NCBI RefSeq assembly: GCF_002938435.1
Contig: NZ_POQT01000003.1
Coordinates: forward strand, 62,001 to 126,000
Source of the DNA: Blastococcus saxobsidens
Lineage (GTDB): Bacteria > Actinomycetota > Actinomycetes > Mycobacteriales > Geodermatophilaceae
Length of the DNA stretch: 64,000 bases
Reading direction: 5' to 3'
Shown here: positions 5,297-20,064 of the stretch, one piece after another
Layout: every line of letters begins with the position of its first letter
Position numbering within the stretch: position 1 is the stretch's first letter
Notes under the pieces: generated by a model
Databases searched by the model: none
What the model was told of the DNA's origin: nothing
The model's input: the letters and a program-made list of their open reading frames with translations, nothing else
Position numbers and translations under genes: made by a program

Positions 5297-5512
5297 CCGG
5301 TGGAGGGCCGTCGCGGACGGGTGGACGCTCCGCCTCTGCTCCCCGGTGCGGGCAGAGCCGGAGTGCGTGGCGCACGCAGGTGCCGCAGCGGGGCGGAGGG
5401 CGGACCGCGCGCCATGCCGCGGCCCCGGGAGTCGCGGCAGATCGGCCGTCCACAACCGATCGGGGGAGAACCGGGGCCTGTCGTCGCGCCACGGGGCGGG
5501 GGAGATGGCAGA

Positions 5513-8500
5513 GTGCCGGGTGTGAAGACCTGGCTCGAGAGCTGGCCGGTGTACCGGCAGCTGACCGGTTCGGACCCGTTGGGTCGCGGCAAGGCCGCCC
5601 GCAGCAAGGCGACGGAGGCCACGGTGTCGCGCACCGCGACCGCCGACCGCGTGGTGAAGAGCGTCTGCCCGTACTGCGCTGTCGGCTGCGCGCAGAACGT
5701 CTACGTGAAGGACGAGAAGGTCGTCCAGATCGAGGGCGACCCGGACTCGCCGATCAGCCGCGGGCGGCTGTGCCCCAAGGGCAGCGCCAGCAAGCAGCTG
5801 GTCACCAGCCCCTCGCGGGTCACGACGGTCAAGTACCGCCGTCCCCACGGGACGGAGTGGGAGGACCTCGAGCTCGACACGGCGATGGAGATGATCGCCG
5901 ACCGCGTCCTGGAGGCCCGCCGCAAGGGCTGGCAGGACACCGACGCCGAAGGCCGGAAGCTCGGCCGGACCATGGGGATCGCGAGCCTCGGCGGGGCGGC
6001 CCTCGACAACGAGGAGAATTACCTCATGAAGAAGCTGTACAGCGCCCTGGGCGCTGTGCAGATCGAGAACCAAGCACGCATATAGCACTCTGCGACGGTG
6101 CCCGGTCTGGGTGCCTCGTTCGGTCGTGGCGGTGCCACGAACTTCCTGGAAGACCTCGCGAACTCCGACTGCATCGTCATCGAGGGTTCGAACATGGCCG
6201 AGTGCCACCCGGTGGGCTTCCAGTGGGTCGGTGAGGCCAAGGCGCGCGGCGCCAAGGTCATCCACATCGACCCCCGCTTCACGCGGACCAGCGCGATCGC
6301 CGATCTGCACGTCCCGCTGCGCATCGGCACCGACATCGCGTTCCTCGGTGGCCTGATCAACTACGTCCTGAGCAACGACCTGTACTTCGAGGAGTACGTG
6401 GCCGCCTACACCAACGCCGCGGCGCTGGTGCGCGAGGACTTCGTCGACAGCGAGGACCTCGACGGCCTGTTCTCCGGCTTCGACCCCGAGACCCGGACCT
6501 ACGACGAGTCCTCCTGGCAGTACGAGACGGAGGAGCCGCCCGAGTCCGCGGCCGACGACCCGGCCGAGGCCGCCGAGCAGCGGGAGCTCGACGACGACCC
6601 GAGCGTCCGCCACTCCGACCAGGCGCAGGCAGCCGGCAGCGGTGGGCCGCCGATCCCCGGCAAGCCCAAGCGCGACGAGACCCTGCAGCACCCGCGGTCG
6701 GTCTTCCAGATCCTCAAGCGGCACTACGCCCGCTACACGCCGGAGATGGTGGCGGAGGTCTGCGGCATCGAGCCGGCCGTGTTCGAGCAGGTCGCGCAGT
6801 GGGTGACCGACAACAGCAACCGCGACCGGACGACGGCGTGGGTGTACTCCGTGGGCTGGACGCAGCACAGCGTCGGCGCGCAGTACATCCGCACCTGCTC
6901 GATCCTGCAGACGCTGCTGGGCAACATCGGCCGCCCCGGCGGCGGGATCCTCGCCCTGCGCGGGCACGCCAGCATCCAGGGCTCGACCGACATCCCGACG
7001 CTGTTCAACATCCTCCCGGGCTACCTGCCGATGCCGCACGCGCTGCAGCACGGCTCGCTCGAGGAGTACGTGGCCGATGCCGCCGGCAAGGCCGGCTTCT
7101 GGGGCAACAAGCGCGCCTACATGACCAACCTGCTCAAGGCGTGGTGGGGCGACGCGGCGACGGCGGAGAACGATTTCGCCTTCGACTACCTGCCGAAGAT
7201 CAACGGGGACCACAGCTCCTACCGCACGATCGCCGACATGATCGAGGGCAAGGTCTCCGGCTACTTCCTGGTCGGGGAGAACCCGGCGGTCGGGCACCCG
7301 AACGGCCGGATGAACCGGTTCGGCCTGGCCAATCTCGACTGGCTCGTCGTCCGCGACCTGCAGCTGATCGAGTCGGCGACCTTCTGGAAGGAGTCGCCGG
7401 AGATCGAGACCGGCGAGCTGGCGCCGGAGACGATCGGCACCGAGGTCTTCTTCATGCCGGCGGCCACGCACGTGGAGAAGGACGGCACCTTCACCCAGAC
7501 GCAGCGCCTGCTGCAGTGGCGGGACAAGGCTGTCGAGCCGCCGGCCGACGCCCGCAGCGACCTGTGGTTCTTCTTCCACCTCGGTCGCATCCTGCGCGCG
7601 CGGCTGGCGGACTCCACCGACCCCCGGGACCGCCCGCTGCTCGACCTCACCTGGGACTACCCGCTGCACGGGGAGACGCAGGACCCCAGCGCCGACGCGG
7701 TGCTGCGCGAGATCAACGGCACCGGTCCCGACGGCCGCGCGCTGTCGTCCTACATGCAGATGAAGGACGACGGCTCCACCTCCGGTGGCTGCTGGATCTA
7801 CTGCGGCGTGTACGCCGACGAGGTGAACCAGGCCGCGCGCCGGAAGCCGGCCAAGGAGCAGGGCGCCGTCGCCTCGGAGTGGGGCTGGGCCTGGCCGCTG
7901 AACCGCCGGATGCTCTACAACCGCGCCTCGGCCGACCCCGACGGCAGGCCGTGGAGCGAGCGCAAGAAGTACGTGTGGTGGGACGAGGCGGCCGGTGAGT
8001 GGACCGGCCTGGACACCCCGGACTTCGAGAAGCACAAGCGGCCGGACTACGTGCCGCCGGAGGGCGCCCGTGCTCAGGACGCGCTGGCCGGCACCGACCC
8101 GTTCGTCATGCAGGGCGACGGCAAGGCGTGGTTGTTCGCGCCCGCGGGCGTGGTCGACGGCCCGCTGCCGACGCACTACGAGCCGGTCGAGTCGGTCGCG
8201 GAGAACGCGCTGTACAAGCAGCAGGCGAACCCGACGGTGGAGCGCATCCCGGGTCCGTGGAACCGGGAGAACCCGTCGATGAGCGAGGTCTTCCCGTTCC
8301 AGGTGACCACCTACCGGCTCACCGAGCACCACACGGCCGGTGCCATGAGCCGCACGCTGCCCTACCTGTCGGAACTGCAGCCGGAGTTCTTCGTGGAGGT
8401 CAGCCCGGAGCTGGCGGAGCTGCGCGGGCTGACCAACGGGGAGTTCGCCACGCTGGTCAGCGCGCGCACGGCGATCGAGGCGAAGGTGCTGGTCACCGAG

Positions 8501-13164: not shown

Positions 13165-13598
13165 CGCCGATCCTCCACCGGTCGCCGGGGACGAAGGGGT
13201 TCGAGACCCGGCCGGAGGTCCCAGTCTGCACGCGTTCCACCGCGGGGGTGGGCGAGCAGGCGAGGGGACGTGATCGCGGAACCCCACGGGGACCGGCCGC
13301 GGCGATCGGGTGACCGGAGCCGGCCCGGTGATCACCCACCGCGGTGGCGCCCGGTCTCCGGCGTCCCGACGCTGCTCACCTGGTTGGCGTCATCGGCTGC
13401 GTGCACCGACGGAGGCCCGCGGCATGAAGCGGTGCAGGCCTCGTCATGGGGCAGGTGTTTACGGCACGGACGTGGGTAGGAAAGGGCGGCTCTCATGGCG
13501 CGGCGCTCGACGTCCCTCCCGGGACGGGGGCCTACCTGTGCTCGGGGGAGGGCGGGTCCCTGTCGCCAGGCAGGGACCGTCGAGCGCGAGGAGGCGGA
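13165..13598. other. Divergent intergenic region with a hairpin before the repeat-protein gene
   Basis: 434 bases between the amidase and the repeat-protein gene. A hairpin with arms GGTCCCTG (13555-13562) and CAGGGACC (13571-13578) sits about 20 bases before the start codon of the latter and could affect its translation. Nothing else is clear. Confidence 0.5.
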
Positions 13599-15092
13599 AT
13601 GGGCCGGCACGGCGGGCGGCATGTGGTTCCAGAGGCAGGGCGGCCCGAGGTGTCCCGGGCCGGTCGCCACCGGGCTCCCGAAGAGGGACAGCCGGCAGTG
13701 CCCTACGACGGTCGCCACCGGGCTCACGACGTGGCGCCTTCCCGGGAGGTGTTCCTCCGGGAACGGGCCATCCCGGCGCTGTGGGGTGCGAACGGCGCGC
13801 TGGCGGCTGCTGCATTGGCGGCTGCCCTGTTCGTCGGACAGTCGGATTCGGGCCTCGGGCTGCTGGCGGACCCGCCGTACCGACTCGGGCCCTGGGACTC
13901 GGGGCCGGACAACGGGGCAGGCGGCGCCGGTGCTGCTGCCGACGTCGCCGAGGTCGGCCTGCAGTTCTCCCTGAACCCCGGGGTCCCGAGCCAGAACTCG
14001 CCCGGTGCTGGTCGGGCCTCGCTCGAGGGGGATGCCCTCTTCGCCGAACCCCTCGCGGCGCAGTCGCCGGCGCCCTTCGGCAGCGTTTTCCGCGCGCCGT
14101 CGGCCGGTCCGGTCGGAGCGCCGACGCCCGCAATCCCCGCGCAGCGCGCCGGTGGGCAGGCAGCGCCTGGGCCGGTGGCGACTGCCGACGCCGGCCTCGC
14201 CTCCCCAGCCGCCCAGCCGGAGAGCCGGATGGTGGGTACGCAAGCGCCGGCGGGGGAGCCGGTGGCGCCCGCGGCGGAACCCGGGAACAGGACGGTGGAG
14301 CCGGTGGCCCCCGTGGCGGAGCCCGGGGACAGCACGGTGGAGCCGGTGGCTGGGCCGGTGGCTGGTCCGGTGAGCCGGGTGGTGGAGCCGGTGGCCGAGC
14401 CCGTGGCTGAGACGGTCGCGCCGCTGGTGGAGCCGGTGGCTGGGCCCGTGGCTGGTCCGGTGAGCCGGGTGGTGGAGCCGGTGGCCGAGCCCGTGGCTGG
14501 TCCGGTGAGCCGGGTGGTGGAGCCGGTGGCTGAGCCCGTGGCTGGTCCGGTGAGCCGGGTGGTGGAGCCGGTGGCCGAGCCCGTGGCTGGTCCGGTGAGC
14601 CGGGTGGTGGAGCCGGTGGCCGGGCCCGTGGCTGGTCCGGTGAGCCGGGTGGTGGAGCCGGTGGCTGAGACGGTCGCGCCGGTGGTGGCGCCGGTGGCCG
14701 AGCCCGTGGCTGAGACGGTCGCGCCGCTGGTGGAGCCGGTGGCTGAGACGGTGGCGCCGGTGGTGGAGCCGGTGGCTGAGACGGTGGAGCCGGTGGCTGA
14801 GACGGTGGCTGAGACGGTGGCGCCGGTGGCTGAGACGGTGGCGCCGCTGGTGGAGCCGGTGGCCGAAACGGTGGAGCCGGCGGCCCAGACAGTGGCCGAG
14901 ACGGTGGCGCCGGTGGCCGAGCCCGTGGCCCAGACGGTGGCGCCGGTCGTGGACGAGGTCGTGGCCCCGGTGGAGGCCGTCAGTGCCCCCGTGTCGGAGG
15001 CAGCGGCGTCAGCCGGAGACGCCGACGTCCCCTCGAAGCCGGCGGACATCCCGCTCGGCGGGGGCGAGACGCTGTCGGGCGGACTCGGCTGA
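13599..15092 (+). CDS. Membrane-anchored protein with long PVAEPVA-type tandem repeats
   Basis: 497 residues, family not recognised. About 1-60 are basic and probably cytoplasmic, about 63-84 one membrane helix (LWGANGALAAAALAAALFVG), about 85-225 a low-complexity region with a few hydrophobic stretches, and about 230-470 a Pro/Val/Glu/Ala repeat built on PVAEPVAGPVSRVVE and shorter PVAETVAP units. The C-terminal tail is acidic with no cell-wall sorting signal. The repeat lacks Gly and aromatic residues and would form an extended, charged rod outside the membrane, perhaps spanning the wall. ATG 13599 has GAGGAGG upstream with good spacing, which rules out the longer open frame starting at 13446. 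Function unknown. Confidence 0.7.
   Translation: MGRHGGRHVVPEAGRPEVSRAGRHRAPEEGQPAVPYDGRHRAHDVAPSREVFLRERAIPALWGANGALAAAALAAALFVGQSDSGLGLLADPPYRLGPWDSGPDNGAGGAGAAADVAEVGLQFSLNPGVPSQNSPGAGRASLEGDALFAEPLAAQSPAPFGSVFRAPSAGPVGAPTPAIPAQRAGGQAAPGPVATADAGLASPAAQPESRMVGTQAPAGEPVAPAAEPGNRTVEPVAPVAEPGDSTVEPVAGPVAGPVSRVVEPVAEPVAETVAPLVEPVAGPVAGPVSRVVEPVAEPVAGPVSRVVEPVAEPVAGPVSRVVEPVAEPVAGPVSRVVEPVAGPVAGPVSRVVEPVAETVAPVVAPVAEPVAETVAPLVEPVAETVAPVVEPVAETVEPVAETVAETVAPVAETVAPLVEPVAETVEPAAQTVAETVAPVAEPVAQTVAPVVDEVVAPVEAVSAPVSEAAASAGDADVPSKPADIPLGGGETLSGGLG
14371..14685 (+). repeat. 45-bp in-frame tandem repeats
   Basis: The string TGAGCCGGGT recurs at 14371, 14461, 14506, 14551, 14596 and 14641, that is, at 45-base steps with one 90-base step. 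Each unit codes for 15 residues. Copies are nearly identical in DNA, which suggests recent expansion or gene conversion and possible copy-number variation between strains. Confidence 0.9.
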
Positions 15093-15129
15093 GGACGTCG
15101 ATCCGCACGGCCGCCGCTGCCCAGGGGGA

Positions 15130-15921
15130 CTACCGCGGTGGCGGGTTCGCGGACGCCTCCGTGCGGCGGGACGTCGGCGGTCGCCACCCCGTCGTGTCGC
15201 GGCGCGGGGGCAGCGACCGTTCCGGCCGGGCACGCGGGGCGACGGTGCCGCGGGTGGGCGCCAGGTCGACCGGGTCGACGACGATCGAGCGGAACATCCC
15301 CGAGTCGAGCGCCGGCACCAGGTCCGGACGCGCCGCGGGCACCTCCACCTCGGCCTTCCGCAGGTCGAACACGCAGGGGGTGCTGGCCGGTGAGCCCAGG
15401 TAGGGCCGGGACGATGCCCCCGCCATCGGGCGCCACGGCAGGCCCAGGACACGCAGCACCCGGAGCACCCGGTCGTCCAGGATGGTGACGAGGCCGTGGA
15501 CGCCGGTGCCGGTGGCGTACCGCCAGACGCCGTGGCACAGGGCGAGCGTGATCTCGGCGCCCGCCGCACCGGTGCGGTAGCGGGGGTCCACGGCCAGGCT
15601 GGCCACGTCCCACACCGCCTCGGGCGTGAGGTCGATCGTCGCCAGGCTGTCCGCGACGGGCAGGTGCCACGGCTCGCCCGCCACGTCGGCCAGCGTCTTC
15701 ACCGGTGCGGGGCCCGCCGGGATCAGCCGGATGGCGCCCAGGGCGCGGCCGCTCTCGTCGTCGACCACCGCCACGAAGCGCGACCGATCCTCGTACGGGC
15801 CGTACTCCTGCTCCATGACCGCCGGGGTGTTGCCGAAGGCCTGCAGGAAGACGTCGGCCTCGACCCGTCGTGCGGCATCCCGCTCCCCGGCGGAGTGCGC
15901 CACGAGCAGTCGGAGGGCCAT
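15130..15921 (-). CDS. LuxI/GNAT-like N-acyltransferase
   Basis: Probably transfers an acyl group to an amine. 263 residues with the fold landmarks of autoinducer-synthase and N-acyl amino acid synthase proteins: RRVEADVFLQAFG near the start, YEDRSRFVAVVDDESGRAL, then GAIRLIPAGPAPVKTLADV, and VWDVASLAVDPRYRTG. The last 60 residues are Pro/Arg rich and not part of the fold. ATG 15921 lies one base after the TGA of the SpeD-like gene, so the two are translationally coupled. Acyl donor and acceptor cannot be read from sequence. The coupled SpeD-like gene suggests that the acceptor is a decarboxylation product or a SAM derivative (inference). Confidence 0.7.
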   Translation of the reverse strand: MALRLLVAHSAGERDAARRVEADVFLQAFGNTPAVMEQEYGPYEDRSRFVAVVDDESGRALGAIRLIPAGPAPVKTLADVAGEPWHLPVADSLATIDLTPEAVWDVASLAVDPRYRTGAAGAEITLALCHGVWRYATGTGVHGLVTILDDRVLRVLRVLGLPWRPMAGASSRPYLGSPASTPCVFDLRKAEVEVPAARPDLVPALDSGMFRSIVVDPVDLAPTRGTVAPRARPERSLPPRRDTTGWRPPTSRRTEASANPPPR

Positions 15922-15922
15922 C

Positions 15923-16327
15923 TCAGAAGGACTTCGCGACGACGGTGCCGGCCGCGAAGAAGTCGGCGGTGAAGGCAACGGCGGCGTCCGGGTCGAACGC
16001 CTTGCACGTGTAGACGTCCACCGAGAAGAACAACCGCGGCTGCTCCCAGGCGTAGAAGTGCGCCCCCGAGGTCTCCCAGTGGATCCAGCCGGCCCAGCCG
16101 TACCGGTCCGAGCGGTGCGTCACCGGCTCGAGCAGCTGCACCATGTCGACCTCGCGGGACAGCGCGGAGAGGTACGTCCGGATCTGCGCGTCGTCCACGG
16201 GCCGGGCCGGGATGCCCTCGATCACCAGCCGCTGCCGGACGATCTCCGGCGCGAGGTCCTGCCAGGCGACGGGGCGGGGGAGCAGCTCGCGGGCGGGGGA
16301 GGAGGGCAGCACACCCCCATGGTTCAC
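15923..16327 (-). CDS. SpeD-like (S-adenosylmethionine decarboxylase family) protein
   Basis: 134 residues from GTG 16327. The C-terminal half resembles prokaryotic AdoMet decarboxylase, a self-cleaving pyruvoyl enzyme. ETSGAHFYAWEQ aligns with the ESHxxxHTWPE processing site, so Ser87 could become the pyruvoyl group, and VDVYTC supplies the conserved catalytic Cys (108). The His normally five residues after the Ser is Tyr here, with a His at +3 instead, so processing or substrate may differ. SpeD relatives with changed substrates (ornithine or arginine decarboxylases) are known. One base separates it from the acyltransferase gene; the GGDEF-EAL gene ends 65 bases upstream. The start is uncertain (GTG 16312 is the alternative). 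Confidence 0.6.
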   Translation of the reverse strand: MNHGGVLPSSPARELLPRPVAWQDLAPEIVRQRLVIEGIPARPVDDAQIRTYLSALSREVDMVQLLEPVTHRSDRYGWAGWIHWETSGAHFYAWEQPRLFFSVDVYTCKAFDPDAAVAFTADFFAAGTVVAKSF

Positions 16328-16392
16328 AGTGCGCTGCGGAGAGTGCTGATCCGTGACGGCGTGTCGCGGCCCGAGGTGCAGATGACCCGTGG

Positions 16393-18714
16393 TCAGTCCC
16401 GAGCCGGATCCCGGCCGAGCTGGGGCATGAGCGCCTCCTCGACGAGCCCGGAGTCCGAGGCGGCCAGCCAGTCCAGGAAGTCCTCGACCGGCATGGGACG
16501 GGCGACGGCGTACCCCTGCGCGACGTCGCAGCCGAGACGGGCGAGGGTGGCGCTGGTCGCCAGGGTCTCGACCCCCTCGGCCACCAGGCTCAGGCCCAGG
16601 GCGTGGGCGAGGGCGACGGTGCTCTGCACGATCGCCGCCGCCCGGGGGTCGCGGTCGACGTCGGCGGTCAGGCTGCGGTCGAGCTTCAGCTCGTCGGCCG
16701 GCAGGTGCCGCAGGTAGGCCAGCGAGCTGTAGCCCGTGCCGTAGTCGTCGATCGACGTGCGGACGCCGGAGGCGCGCAGGGCGGCGAGCACCGCGCGGCC
16801 GCGCTCGGGGTCGGCCATGAGGGTGTCCTCGACGAGCTCCAGGGTGAGCGCCCGTGCGGGCAGGCCGTGCCGGTGCAGGGCGGCGGCGACCTTGCCGGCC
16901 AGGTCGAGGTCGGTGACGTTGGCCGCCGAGAGGTTGACCGACACCGGCACCTCGCGCTCGGGCCACCACCGGGCGGTTGCCGCCAGCGCGAGCTCGAGCA
17001 CCCGGTCGGTCAGGGGCCGGAGGAGGCCGGCCTGCTCGGCGGCCGGCAGGAGGTCGGCGGGGGAGAGCAGCCCCCGCGTGGGGTGGTCCCACCGGACCAG
17101 TGCCTCGGCGCCGGCGATCCGGCCGTCGCGCAGGTCCATCTGGGGCTGCAGGAAGATCCGGAGCTCGTTCCCGTCCAGAGCGGTGCGCAGCTCCTCCATG
17201 GTGCGCAGCCGGTCGCTGGCACCGGTTCCGGTGACCGGGTCGGGCACGTAGAGGTGCACGCCCTCGCGGGTGCGCTTGGCGCTGTACATGGCGACGTCGG
17301 CGCAGTGCAGCAGCTCCTCGACCGTCGTCGCCGGGGCCGGCGCGGTACCGACGCCGATGCTGACGCCCACGTGCAGCCGCACGTCGGCCACCGTGAACGG
17401 CGCCAGCAGCTGCTCGCGCAGCCGCTCGGCGAGCGCGCGTGCCTCGTCGGGCTCGGCGACCGGCATCAGGACGGCGAACTCGTCGCCGCCGAGCCGGGCC
17501 AGGACGTCCTCGGTTCGCAGGGAGCCGCGCAGCCGCGGGCCGACCTGGCGGAGCAGGTCGTCGCCGGCGGAGTGGCCGAGGCTGTCGTTGATCTCCTTGA
17601 ACCCGTCCAGGTCGAGCAGCAGGAGGGCGGCGGGCCGGTCGATGACCGCCGAGGCGACGACGCGCTGCGCCCGCTCGAGCAGCGCGCGCCGGTTGGCGAG
17701 GCCGGTGAGCTCGTCGGTGCGTGACTCGAGCTTGACCTGGTTGTACTCGCGGACCTCGCGGAAGGTGACGGCGATGCGGACGAGGCCGGCCAGCACGCAG
17801 CCCATGGCCAGCCAGCCGGCGAGGTCGGGCACGGGATCCGACCAGGCCGGGCTGAGCACGACGAGGCCGGCGACGAGGCTGGCCAGTGGCACGGCGAGCA
17901 GCCGCCAGCCGATGCGGGAATCGAAGGCGTCGACGGGAGCCGGCCGTTCGACGGCGCCCGTCGCGGCCGCGGCCGTCAGGACGACGCCGGCCAGCCAGCC
18001 CAGTTCGAGCGGGCCGCCGTCGACGTAGGTGCCGCGCACCTTCAGTGCGAACAGGACCAGGTCGGAGATGCAGACGGCGCCGAGCCCGGCGCCGAGGAGC
18101 ACCGCGGTGCGGTCGAGGCGCATGCCGAGGATGCCGCCGACGGCCATGACGACGGCGATGAGCAGCACCGTCGTGATCGGCGCGACGAGGTCGACGGCGG
18201 CGACCGGTGCCTCGCCGGGGTCGGTGCGGAGGTAGGGGCCCAGGACGAAGGCGACCCCGGCGGACAGGCTGCCGAGGGCGGCCACGACGCCGTCGAGCCA
18301 CATGCTGGGGTGGAAGCGGGCGACCCGGACGCGGATGAGCACGACGACCGGGACGTACATGACCAGGTACGCCGCGAGCAGGACCGCGTGCGAGAGCCAG
18401 GACGCCGGTTCGTTGCCCTGCAGGCCGGCGGACAGCACCCGCAGGGCGTTGCCGACGGCGCCCAGGGTCAGTGCGACGGCGAGCGCCACCCAGGCGACCC
18501 GCTCCGTCCGGACCCGGCTCGCCGCCAGCACGCAGGCCGCGGCGGCGGCGAGGTAGGGGAGGTTGAAGAGGACGACGTCGTAGGTGCGGTCCCATGCGGC
18601 GCCGTCCGGGCGTGGCCCGATGCCGGTGGCGAACAGCGCGGCCAGGCCGATCGTCAGCACCAGCGCACGGCGGGCAGGCCTCGGCGTGGCCGCAGCCTGC
18701 GATCGCTGGTCCAT
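16393..18714 (-). CDS. Membrane GGDEF-EAL protein, both domains intact
   Basis: Bifunctional or switchable c-di-GMP enzyme. 773 residues from ATG 18714: about ten hydrophobic helices over roughly 1-325 with no recognised sensor domain, GGDEF at about 335-495 (LARLGGDEFAVL intact, RTED before it as I-site) and EAL at about 510-755 (EALVRWDHP, NLSAANV, ELVEDTLM, DDYGTGYSSL, KLDRS, AEGVET). All EAL metal and substrate residues that I can check are present. It heads the operon with the SpeD-like and acyltransferase genes, so c-di-GMP turnover may be tied to that module. GTG 18732 is an alternative start; neither has a clear ribosome site. Confidence 0.88.
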   Translation of the reverse strand: MDQRSQAAATPRPARRALVLTIGLAALFATGIGPRPDGAAWDRTYDVVLFNLPYLAAAAACVLAASRVRTERVAWVALAVALTLGAVGNALRVLSAGLQGNEPASWLSHAVLLAAYLVMYVPVVVLIRVRVARFHPSMWLDGVVAALGSLSAGVAFVLGPYLRTDPGEAPVAAVDLVAPITTVLLIAVVMAVGGILGMRLDRTAVLLGAGLGAVCISDLVLFALKVRGTYVDGGPLELGWLAGVVLTAAAATGAVERPAPVDAFDSRIGWRLLAVPLASLVAGLVVLSPAWSDPVPDLAGWLAMGCVLAGLVRIAVTFREVREYNQVKLESRTDELTGLANRRALLERAQRVVASAVIDRPAALLLLDLDGFKEINDSLGHSAGDDLLRQVGPRLRGSLRTEDVLARLGGDEFAVLMPVAEPDEARALAERLREQLLAPFTVADVRLHVGVSIGVGTAPAPATTVEELLHCADVAMYSAKRTREGVHLYVPDPVTGTGASDRLRTMEELRTALDGNELRIFLQPQMDLRDGRIAGAEALVRWDHPTRGLLSPADLLPAAEQAGLLRPLTDRVLELALAATARWWPEREVPVSVNLSAANVTDLDLAGKVAAALHRHGLPARALTLELVEDTLMADPERGRAVLAALRASGVRTSIDDYGTGYSSLAYLRHLPADELKLDRSLTADVDRDPRAAAIVQSTVALAHALGLSLVAEGVETLATSATLARLGCDVAQGYAVARPMPVEDFLDWLAASDSGLVEEALMPQLGRDPARD

Positions 18715-18801
18715 GCCTACGACAACGGTCACGGACCCGGCGGGCTTGACGGATGAGCGCCCGGGATCACCCCGAGGAGGGAGGCACGGCGGCCCCTGCG
18801 G

Positions 18802-19599
18802 TCAGATGAGGCCGCTGTCCAGGGACTGCTGCCAGGACATCTCGTCGATGACGGCGCGCTTCTCGACGTCGTCGAAGCGCACCTTCTTCCAGCTGTGTCC
18901 CTGCTCGGTGCCGGCCGTGGCGCTGCGGTGCCACTCGCCCTTGCGGGTCAGGAACCAGGAGCGGCCGTGGTAGCCGGAGCCGGTGAAGATCCAGCCGGAC
19001 AGGCTGGTGAGCCCGTTGCGCTGCTTGTGCGGCTCGCGGGCGTAGGGAAGCAGGTAGAGGCAGACGTCGGTGAACTCGGCGGCGGTCAGCCGGCGCAGGG
19101 TGTGCGCGGCGGAGCGGATCTCCTGCTCGGTGCGCTTCTCGTCGCGGGCGTAGAGGATCCAGACGGCGTCCTCGTCGGCCAGCTCGAGCAGCGTGGTGCG
19201 CTGCCGGAGACGCTCGGCCTCGGCGGCTGCTGCCTCCTCCTCGCGGCGGCGTTCCTCGGCGGCCGCGGCCGAACGAGCGCGCACCCTCGCCAGGGCCAGG
19301 TCGCGATCGCAGACCCGCCACCCCTGCCAGAGGTCGGAGTGGTCGGCGCACACCATGCGGGAGCACTCGGTGCACTCACCGACCGCGGGGTCACCGCACC
19401 GGCAGCGCGCGGAGCCGGGGCCGTCGTCGCGGGTCTGGATGTAGACCTTGCCGCAGCGGGTTTCCGTCACGGTGGCAACCGACGCCGTGGCGTCGCCGAC
19501 GGCAGCGGGCCGGCCGGCCGGGACGAGGGCGTCGCAGCGCCAGTACCCGGGAAGGATCTGCGTGCGTGCGTCCGTCGCCCCACACGAGGGACAGGGCAT
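18802..19599 (-). CDS. Zinc-ribbon hypothetical protein with coiled coil
   Basis: 265 residues, family not recognised. The start MPCPSCG with a later WRCD forms one Cys-based zinc site. CRCGDPAVGECTECSRMVCADH is a second, denser Cys/His cluster like B-box or RING-type ribbons (about residues 68-88). About 105-135 are a charged Ala/Glu/Arg coiled coil. The rest (about 145-265) is an unknown globular domain with many aromatics (GWIFTGSGYHGRSWFLTRKGEW). No membrane segment, so probably cytoplasmic; protein or nucleic-acid binding is a guess. ATG 19599 appears leaderless (see promoter entry). Confidence 0.65.
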   Translation of the reverse strand: MPCPSCGATDARTQILPGYWRCDALVPAGRPAAVGDATASVATVTETRCGKVYIQTRDDGPGSARCRCGDPAVGECTECSRMVCADHSDLWQGWRVCDRDLALARVRARSAAAAEERRREEEAAAAEAERLRQRTTLLELADEDAVWILYARDEKRTEQEIRSAAHTLRRLTAAEFTDVCLYLLPYAREPHKQRNGLTSLSGWIFTGSGYHGRSWFLTRKGEWHRSATAGTEQGHSWKKVRFDDVEKRAVIDEMSWQQSLDSGLI

Positions 19600-20064
19600 G
19601 AGCCGAAGGCTAAGGGGCCAGTAGCACCGGACCGCGGAAGGGCTTGGATGTCGTCCGACACGGATGAAGCAGGCGTAACTACCGTCCCGGTTGCCACGGC
19701 AGCGCAGCCCCGGTCGCTGCCGGCCGGCAGTCACCGGGCGATGCAAGGTGGCCGGGCCTGGAGGCTTGATGGACCAGGAAACGATGCGCGGCGTGGAGCG
19801 GCGGCGACATGGCTGGCTAGCTCATCAGCGCGGGCTGTGGCTGCAGCCGGCCCGACACGAGCCGAGGACGCAGAGGACGGCCACGAACCGCCGGCGCGGT
19901 AAGGGCCAGGTGGCGAAGGCCGACGTGCGGGATTCACGGGACACGGTCCGCTGGATCGCTACTACGCCCCGTGTGGATGTCGCCGGACGGAAACCTCAGC
20001 CTTACGACGGATCCCCTCCTGCGGACCTAGCGGCTCTGGAGCCGACGCCGGCGCCTACGGCTGT
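19600..20064. other. Gene-free stretch at the left border of exopolysaccharide locus A
   Basis: 465 bases without a convincing gene; the open frames here have shadow-like composition. The sequence is less GC-biased than the flank to the left. No repeats or tRNA that could be an integration site were seen. Confidence 0.5.
19607..19612 (-). promoter_or_regulatory. -10 element TAGCCT of a probable leaderless promoter
   Basis: On the minus strand TAGCCT ends seven bases before the ATG at 19599, and no Shine-Dalgarno sequence is present. This is the spacing expected for transcription starting at or next to the start codon. Confidence 0.4.

Follow-up and report, generated by a model that had tools for sequence, protein, structure and literature searches.

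A SpeD-like protein paired with a LuxI/FeeM-fold acyltransferase in Blastococcus saxobsidens: a possible signal synthase beside a c-di-GMP enzyme

Why should a relative of S-adenosylmethionine decarboxylase (AdoMetDC) be encoded a single base away from a relative of the acyl-homoserine lactone (AHL) synthases, directly behind a cyclic di-GMP (c-di-GMP) enzyme? The question is raised by a locus of Blastococcus saxobsidens that lies in a stretch of 64,000 nucleotides (hereafter the window; assembly GCF_002938435.1, contig NZ_POQT01000003.1, positions 62,001 to 126,000). In the window, a GGDEF-EAL gene, a SpeD-like gene and a gene for a predicted LuxI/FeeM-fold acyltransferase follow one another in that order on the minus strand (Table 1). 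The original prediction, made from the letters alone, had described this run and proposed a shared use of S-adenosylmethionine (SAM) tied to c-di-GMP turnover; the order and close spacing of the three genes are as it described. The answer that we favor is that the pair is a two-enzyme synthase of a small-molecule signal that is read by an adjacent sensor. Based on the sequences and predicted structures, a signal-synthase function is plausible, and we put the chances of the full reading at about even.

The SpeD-like and acyltransferase genes are a real two-gene module. In a search of 40 genomes, including that of B. saxobsidens itself, the SpeD-like gene was present in 13: its own genome, 10 of the 22 others in the genus, and two further relatives (G023 and G024). 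The acyltransferase gene stood directly behind it in 11 of the 12 relatives that have it, with acyltransferase identities of 63-79%. The GGDEF-EAL gene was upstream of the pair in 10 of these 11 genomes; the remaining one (L012) has a contig too short to tell. In G024, the GGDEF-EAL gene separates the acyltransferase gene from the SpeD-like gene.

A wider scan was evaluated on the best 80 of 131 relatives by similarity, to which all counts out of 80 refer. These loci are mostly from Actinomycetota of many families and then from Saccharibacteria/Patescibacteria, with a single record each from Planctomycetaceae and Bdellovibrionales. Directly downstream of the SpeD-like gene, the acyltransferase profile matched in 74 of the 80 loci, and in 66 of the 74 the two genes overlapped or lay within 5 bp, the starts having been chosen by a script. 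The conserved pairing on which the original prediction was to stand or fall is thus found. Six loci gave no acyltransferase match: L055, L058, L059, L066, L067 and L087. Two of these (L059 and L067) are additional SpeD copies, the pair being present elsewhere in the same assemblies (L044 and L049). L055 was counted as a miss because the open reading frame in the acyltransferase place, of similar size and with a similar PYExxSxF motif, had no profile match. A divergent second type of acyltransferase with this motif occurs in that place in L055 (5375-6157) and across the GGDEF-EAL gene in L149 (5391-6266). In the Planctomycetaceae locus L066, the SpeD-like gene is followed by a gene for an arginine deiminase-family, amidinotransferase-like protein (5447-6580; PF02274, 33 bits) and no acyltransferase gene. 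In the Bdellovibrionales locus L087 (5168-7560), it is followed by a nicotianamine synthase lookalike, recognized by eye and without a Pfam match, and then by a class I/II aminotransferase.

The module is patchy, as few genomes matched in an even sample of 396 from the phylum. The SpeD profile gave eight matches at E 0.001, including the genome of origin; G402, G315, G223 and G298 were clear and three others were weak. The acyltransferase profile gave 12 matches, of which those in G402, G315 and G421 were clear besides that of the genome of origin. An adjacent pair stands beside a convergent GGDEF-EAL gene in G402 and G315. In G223, all three genes occur in a different order and the acyltransferase matches weakly (E 1e-9); the 7.9-kb contig of G298 carries a divergent SpeD alone.

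The two partners are inherited together. In trees of 65 pairs (from 70 eligible, out of the 74), the distances of the SpeD-like proteins and of the acyltransferases were correlated at 0.74, a value reached in none of 500 permutations. The nearest SpeD neighbor was in the same acyltransferase clade for 64 of 64 labelled rows, the acyltransferase tree having supplied the labels. Two Cryobacterium pairs (L074 and L089) fell among Saccharibacteria in a joint tree built from 28 pairs. Holding six Saccharibacteria/Patescibacteria rows together without Cryobacterium was disfavored (approximately unbiased test, p 0.028), for a group chosen after the tree had been seen. The Mycolicibacterium sphagni locus (L047) grouped with Saccharibacteria in the acyltransferase tree and in nearest SpeD neighbors only. 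The G+C content of these six Saccharibacteria/Patescibacteria loci is 0.36-0.47 and that of the Cryobacterium loci 0.66-0.67, which speaks against mis-binned contigs. The trees suggest transfer of the pair between actinobacteria and Saccharibacteria, and the module appears to move between lineages. Carriage as cargo was rejected for phages, as tblastn of 50,697 phage records gave no relative at E 0.1, for viral contigs, where none of 27 pattern matches was confirmed as a relative, and for plasmids, which yielded only three distant sister genes. A defence system was also rejected, there being no PADLOC match.

The SpeD-like protein has the predicted fold of AdoMetDC. It passes the Pfam AdoMet_dc cut-off (40.3 versus 25 bits), and its model, built from an alignment of relatives, has a mean predicted local distance difference test (pLDDT) score of 91.5. 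The five best Foldseek matches of this model in the PDB were all bacterial AdoMetDCs (E 2.5e-07 to 1.4e-05), with TM-scores by target of 0.69-0.76, the highest being to 1tmi. Comparison with the Thermotoga maritima AdoMetDC 1vr7 gave Z 14.3 over 106 residues at 2.4 Å (VIA-align). Sequence searches of solved structures gave nothing useful. The structure search, which the original prediction had named as a possible refutation, therefore returned the AdoMetDC fold.

Self-processing and catalysis in T. maritima involve Ser63, His68 and Cys83 (excerpts of PMC10407285). In an alignment with Pfam-found Actinomycetota SpeD, which is gapless between the Ser and the Trp, the equivalents are Ser87, Tyr92 and Cys108. 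This bears out the claim that the protein keeps the cleavage Ser and the catalytic Cys and carries Tyr in place of His. Ser87, Cys108, Tyr92, His90 and Ala79 are invariant in 92 of 92 rows (82 distinct sequences, some genomes having entered by two routes), an invariance that owes something to the search itself, as patterns spanning this region retrieved most of the rows. A locus found by profile (L099) keeps all five residues as well. His90 sits two residues before Tyr92 on the same strand, and Ala79 occupies the position of Ser55 of canonical AdoMetDC, a residue important for self-cleavage. The family also lacks the proline of the HTWPE motif, having YAWEQ or YAWDx instead; this proline is reported to be completely conserved in bona fide AdoMet decarboxylases (excerpts of PMC10407285). 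One of the eight Pfam-defined comparison rows (L133) is likewise without it (HTYAD), and these rows are not all proven AdoMetDC. In a SpeD tree, the family falls on the non-canonical side with a support of 88 and long branches. Judged by these residues, the SpeD-like protein is not a canonical AdoMetDC, and its substrate is probably other than SAM.

A sister SpeD family, with a DLAP/NLAP start and an SG..xYxW motif, occurs on plasmids of Acaryochloris, Halioglobus and Nostoc (L146, L147 and L148). The three genes keep the Ser, the Cys and a Tyr at the His68 position, and lack His90. The present acyltransferase family was not found near them on these plasmids; the neighbor in Acaryochloris encodes a different GNAT protein of 350 aa. 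From the sequences, we conclude that Tyr replaced His in a wider SpeD subfamily. As a separate observation, contig C43 of G167 carries a canonical SpeD gene in tandem with a second copy (L122/L145) that is SpeDC-like by eye (QLIETSSITGHF motif); it resembles the genomes with two SpeD genes described in excerpts of PMC10407285.

The partner is LuxI-like in predicted fold and, by its residues, is not an AHL synthase. Its model, also from an alignment of relatives (mean pLDDT 92.1), is closest to FeeM (Z 17.4 over 175 residues, 2.8 Å, 14% identity). The AHL synthases LasI and BjaI follow at Z 15.9 and 15.3, and Foldseek ranked BjaI and RpaI first. The LuxI/GNAT-like identity proposed at the outset is thus supported by the predicted structure. 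Some small GNAT acetyltransferases also reach Z 15-17 over ~140 residues, so the fold leaves the substrate unfixed. In sequence, the protein scores 20.5 bits for Pfam Autoind_synth, below the curated cut-off of 24, and weakly matches Acetyltransf_5 and an exosortase-associated acyltransferase. Its profile found only LasI among solved structures, and not significantly (E 0.077). We take the LuxI hallmark residues to be R25, F29, W35, R70, E101 and R104. Mapped through a weak LasI alignment, these positions hold E21, F25, N31, R65, D105 and T/S108 across 60 rows: F29 and R70 are kept, E101 is conservatively replaced, and R25, W35 and R104 are changed. The W35 position is Asn in 60 of the 60 rows. 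Near-copies and cut genes were excluded from this alignment and from the one of 66 rows, and both were further thinned by hand. F29 and W35 are among the hallmark aromatic residues of LuxI (excerpts of PMC7567580).

A signalling gene lies beside the pair in 52 of the 80 loci: a GGDEF/EAL gene in 42, and a histidine kinase and/or response regulator gene in 10. The GGDEF/EAL gene is upstream and co-directional in 21 loci (Geodermatophilaceae), downstream and convergent in 17, upstream and divergent in three, and downstream and co-directional in one, with the sides of L025 and L036 assigned by hand. In a fifth arrangement, found in G024 and G223, it lies between the SpeD-like and acyltransferase genes. 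The 655 kb of flanking sequence yielded 42 GGDEF/EAL genes, against ~4 expected anywhere in that length from the EAL density of the genome of origin (28 in 4.52 Mb), and every one of the 42 adjoins the pair within ~250 bp (L025 by hand). Detection used single-sequence queries. As the loci are related, independent support comes from how many distinct arrangements there are rather than from the count. The 10 kinase/regulator loci are from Saccharibacteria/Patescibacteria, an uncultured bacterium (L056, regulator only) and M. sphagni (kinase only). The kinases follow the pair in Saccharibacteria and M. sphagni; they are HisKA_7TM by Pfam in L038 and L047 and were recognized in the others by similarity to these. 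The link to c-di-GMP enzymes is therefore stronger than originally proposed, spanning 42 of the 80 loci and five gene orders, but the two kinds of neighbor argue for a signal and its receptor rather than for c-di-GMP turnover as such.

The GGDEF-EAL protein of the window has both Pfam domains with their motifs (RLGGDEF, AEALVRW and DDYGTGYSS), as expected of a c-di-GMP enzyme and in line with the full GGDEF-EAL gene first described. Its N-terminal region has ~8 transmembrane (TM) helices as predicted by a simple hydropathy script, and we propose that the protein is the receptor and output of the module. Eight to ten N-terminal TM helices were predicted in 20 of 27 linked GGDEF-EAL proteins versus 4 of 18 unlinked EAL proteins of the same genome; the latter set represents 18 of 27 other EAL stretches, nine having failed a motif filter, and may include fragments. 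In HHalign comparisons to the G024/G223 profile, the convergent group and L041, L048, L054 and L153 matched at 99.7-99.8%, and L151 at 97.1%. Compared directly with L041, L048, L054, L151 and L153, the convergent group matched weakly (2-20%). A search for an N-terminal domain common to the GGDEF-EAL proteins and the 7TM kinases found none. An autoinducer-binding LuxR domain was not found in the genome of origin, and a receptor of another kind would therefore be required.

Enzymes of the SpeD fold generate a pyruvoyl group by self-cleavage and act as decarboxylases of SAM, arginine or ornithine, and enzymes of the LuxI and FeeM types attach an acyl group to an amino nitrogen. Our proposal builds on the predicted folds, the retained Ser and Cys, the co-inheritance of the pair, and the signalling genes that adjoin it in varied orders. 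Specifically, the SpeD-like protein would be a pyruvoyl-type decarboxylase that converts an amino-acid-like substrate, probably not SAM, to an amine. The LuxI/FeeM-fold enzyme would N-acylate this amine, or would acylate the amino acid first, and the acylated amine would be a signal to which the adjacent sensor responds. For Geodermatophilaceae and many other Actinomycetota, this sensor would mostly be a multi-TM GGDEF-EAL protein that changes c-di-GMP levels; in Saccharibacteria, it would be a 7TM histidine kinase with a response regulator. A two-step acylated-amine synthase with a neighboring receptor is the simplest reading given the known chemistry, the strict pairing and the signalling neighbors. 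The sequence of amine formation and N-modification is also weakly supported by L066, in which the amidinotransferase-like protein takes the place of the acyltransferase.

Several observations weigh against this proposal. His68 and Ser55 are both replaced, by Tyr92 and Ala79, so that self-processing of the SpeD-like protein is uncertain. The conservation seen in L014-L093 is inflated, these loci having been retrieved with the patterns WAGWIHW and ETSGAHFY. In G421, acyltransferase and GGDEF-EAL genes are present and a SpeD-like gene is absent. Moreover, 28 of the 80 loci have no signalling neighbor in reach: 17 from Micromonosporaceae, a family mostly devoid of such a neighbor, two from Cryobacterium, five without an acyltransferase and four at contig ends. 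The sensors are not one family, since L061, L084/L086 and the kinases have no N-terminal domain in common with the remaining sensors. In the Geodermatophilaceae proteins, the N-terminal domain matched those of the convergent and G024/G223 groups weakly, at 89% and 87% in one direction and 70-71% in the reverse. By comparison, three unlinked proteins of the same genome (L164, L165 and L166) matched the Geodermatophilaceae profile at 98.8-100%, and L164 and L165 matched the convergent group at 97.3% and 92.0%. As unlinked proteins share it, the N-terminal multi-TM domain is a wider actinobacterial one and no mark of the module. These three are encoded on contigs C11 and C5 of the genome of origin (G000), two of them close together on C5. 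Finally, to our knowledge, Saccharibacteria are not known to make fatty acids, which raises the problem of the acyl donor.

Among the alternatives, the one that survives best is that the pair makes an envelope aminolipid or surfactant, an acyl amine or acyl amino acid, and that the neighboring protein regulates production instead of sensing the product. The closest fold, FeeM, is indeed an N-acyl amino acid synthase, and the weak matches to Acetyltransf_5 and the exosortase-associated acyltransferase point the same way. Nevertheless, adjoining two kinds of signalling protein resembles signal-receptor pairs more, and no recurring lipid gene was noticed among the neighbors, inspected by eye only and without a dedicated search. 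We consider a lipid product unlikely.

It is improbable, in our estimate, that both enzymes use SAM, as the original prediction suggested, with the SpeD-like protein decarboxylating it and either SAM or its decarboxylated form serving the LuxI-like enzyme as amine acceptor. Use of SAM is classical for both folds. The SpeD-like protein could also be the sole AdoMetDC of its genome: a Pfam search, which missed the SpeD-like gene too, found no canonical SpeD there, and two spermine-synthase-family matches lie elsewhere in that genome. However, the LuxI Trp, N-terminal Arg and R104 are replaced in the acyltransferase, and no spermidine synthase relative was found in 93 loci with four queries that recognize each other. 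The absence of the HTWPE proline of bona fide AdoMetDC (excerpts of PMC10407285) also speaks against this alternative. The pairing, the AdoMetDC fold and the link to c-di-GMP enzymes thus stand, and the rationale of shared SAM is not supported.

We judge it quite improbable that the SpeD-like protein is a non-catalytic pseudoenzyme that binds and regulates the acyltransferase, as prozyme does for the AdoMet decarboxylase of trypanosomes: the invariant Tyr and Ala at the His68 and Ser55 positions, the strict pairing and the co-inheritance would fit such a role, but the cleavage Ser and catalytic Cys are kept in all 92 rows, and the three plasmid sister genes keep Ser, Tyr and Cys with none of the acyltransferase family nearby, as fits a Tyr-for-His active site. 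Chance or a local oddity is rejected, since the pair recurs in relatives, the trees agree and signalling genes adjoin repeatedly.

In the window itself, an alternative ATG start of the GGDEF-EAL gene lies at 18714. The interval 15050-18850 yielded no terminator-like or sigma-70-like site. A convergent gene at 13446-15092 (plus strand), ending 37 bp from the acyltransferase stop, encodes a low-complexity protein with VAEPVAETVAP repeats, for which tblastn gave a match in none of L002-L013. The gene upstream of the run (18802-19746, minus strand) encodes a protein with a MPCPSCGATDARTQILPGYWRCDA stretch and no Pfam match above cut-off; a similar one is also upstream of the GGDEF-EAL gene in L014.

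Table 1. The three genes and their junctions, in positions of the window.
Feature	Position	Strand	Basis or remark
GGDEF-EAL protein, 779 aa	16393..18732	-	Pfam GGDEF 143 bits, EAL 235.5 bits
Gap, 65 bp, GGDEF-EAL stop to SpeD-like start	16328..16392	-	No terminator-like site
SpeD-fold protein (predicted), 134 aa, GTG start (approximate)	15923..16327	-	Pfam PF02675 40.3 bits; pLDDT 91.5
Single base between SpeD-like stop and acyltransferase start	15922..15922	-	TGA ends 15923, ATG at 15921
LuxI/FeeM-fold GNAT acyltransferase (predicted), 263 aa	15130..15921	-	pLDDT 92.1; fold matches

Neither the SpeD subfamily nor the LuxI/FeeM-fold subfamily fits any curated family closely. SpeD has been neofunctionalized to the arginine and ornithine decarboxylases SpeDA and SpeDC, the former marked by loss of the AdoMetDC proline and the latter by Gln, Thr, Phe and Tyr residues (excerpts of PMC10407285). 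The SpeD-like protein resembles these and the class 1b SpeD of T. maritima in predicted fold, cleavage Ser, catalytic Cys and small single domain. It differs from class 1b SpeD in its motif HWETSGAHFYAW, in the replacement of His68 by Tyr and of Ser55 by Ala, and in the absence of the HTWPE proline. Moreover, unlike SpeD, SpeDA and SpeDC, it is linked to acyltransferase and signalling genes and not to speE, speB or speY. Neither acyltransferase nor GNAT appears as a word in the main text of PMC10407285.

Similarly, the acyltransferase is alike in predicted fold to the LuxI-type AHL synthases (LasI, BjaI, RpaI and TofI) and FeeM over 164-194 residues (Z 15-17). It is distinguished from them by its pairing with a decarboxylase-like gene and its Autoind_synth score below the Pfam cut-off. 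LuxI homologs that adjoin sensory kinases and keep aromatic residues at F29 and W35 are described in genomes of the Candidate Phyla Radiation (CPR) in excerpts of PMC7567580. The present family likewise lies beside a kinase in CPR genomes but has Asn at the W35 position throughout. The passages on these homologs in PMC7567580, its supplementary tables aside, do not mention a SpeD gene, and an overlap with the present module is unlikely. Solitary luxI homologs of Actinomycetota, such as rhdI of Rhodococcus kroppenstedtii, were described in 2026 (excerpts of PMC13136126). Like the present gene, they are LuxI-family genes without luxR; the homologs of two new strains adjoin iscS, mnmA and etf/fixB, and that of Salinispora is near the sensor histidine kinase gene sasA. 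The main text of that paper contains neither the word decarboxylase nor the word GGDEF. No published description of the module was found among the titles and abstract beginnings on which this was judged, most subscription papers and preprints being outside their reach.

If the proposal holds, Actinomycetota would have a signal synthase-receptor pair of their own with an output directly to c-di-GMP. We know of no signal synthase that uses decarboxylation and acylation. More tentatively, and with a somewhat less than even chance, the acylated amine may represent a new class of signal that changes c-di-GMP in Actinomycetota and acts through kinases in Saccharibacteria. The module, apparently exchanged between them, could then transmit messages between the two, some actinobacteria being hosts of Saccharibacteria, and would provide a testable lead on how these groups communicate. 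Annotation may label such genes simply S-adenosylmethionine decarboxylase, as it does the sister gene on the Acaryochloris plasmid. Even without a role in signalling, a SpeD subfamily that has a fixed acyltransferase partner and carries Tyr where the processing His would be offers enzyme discovery a defined target.

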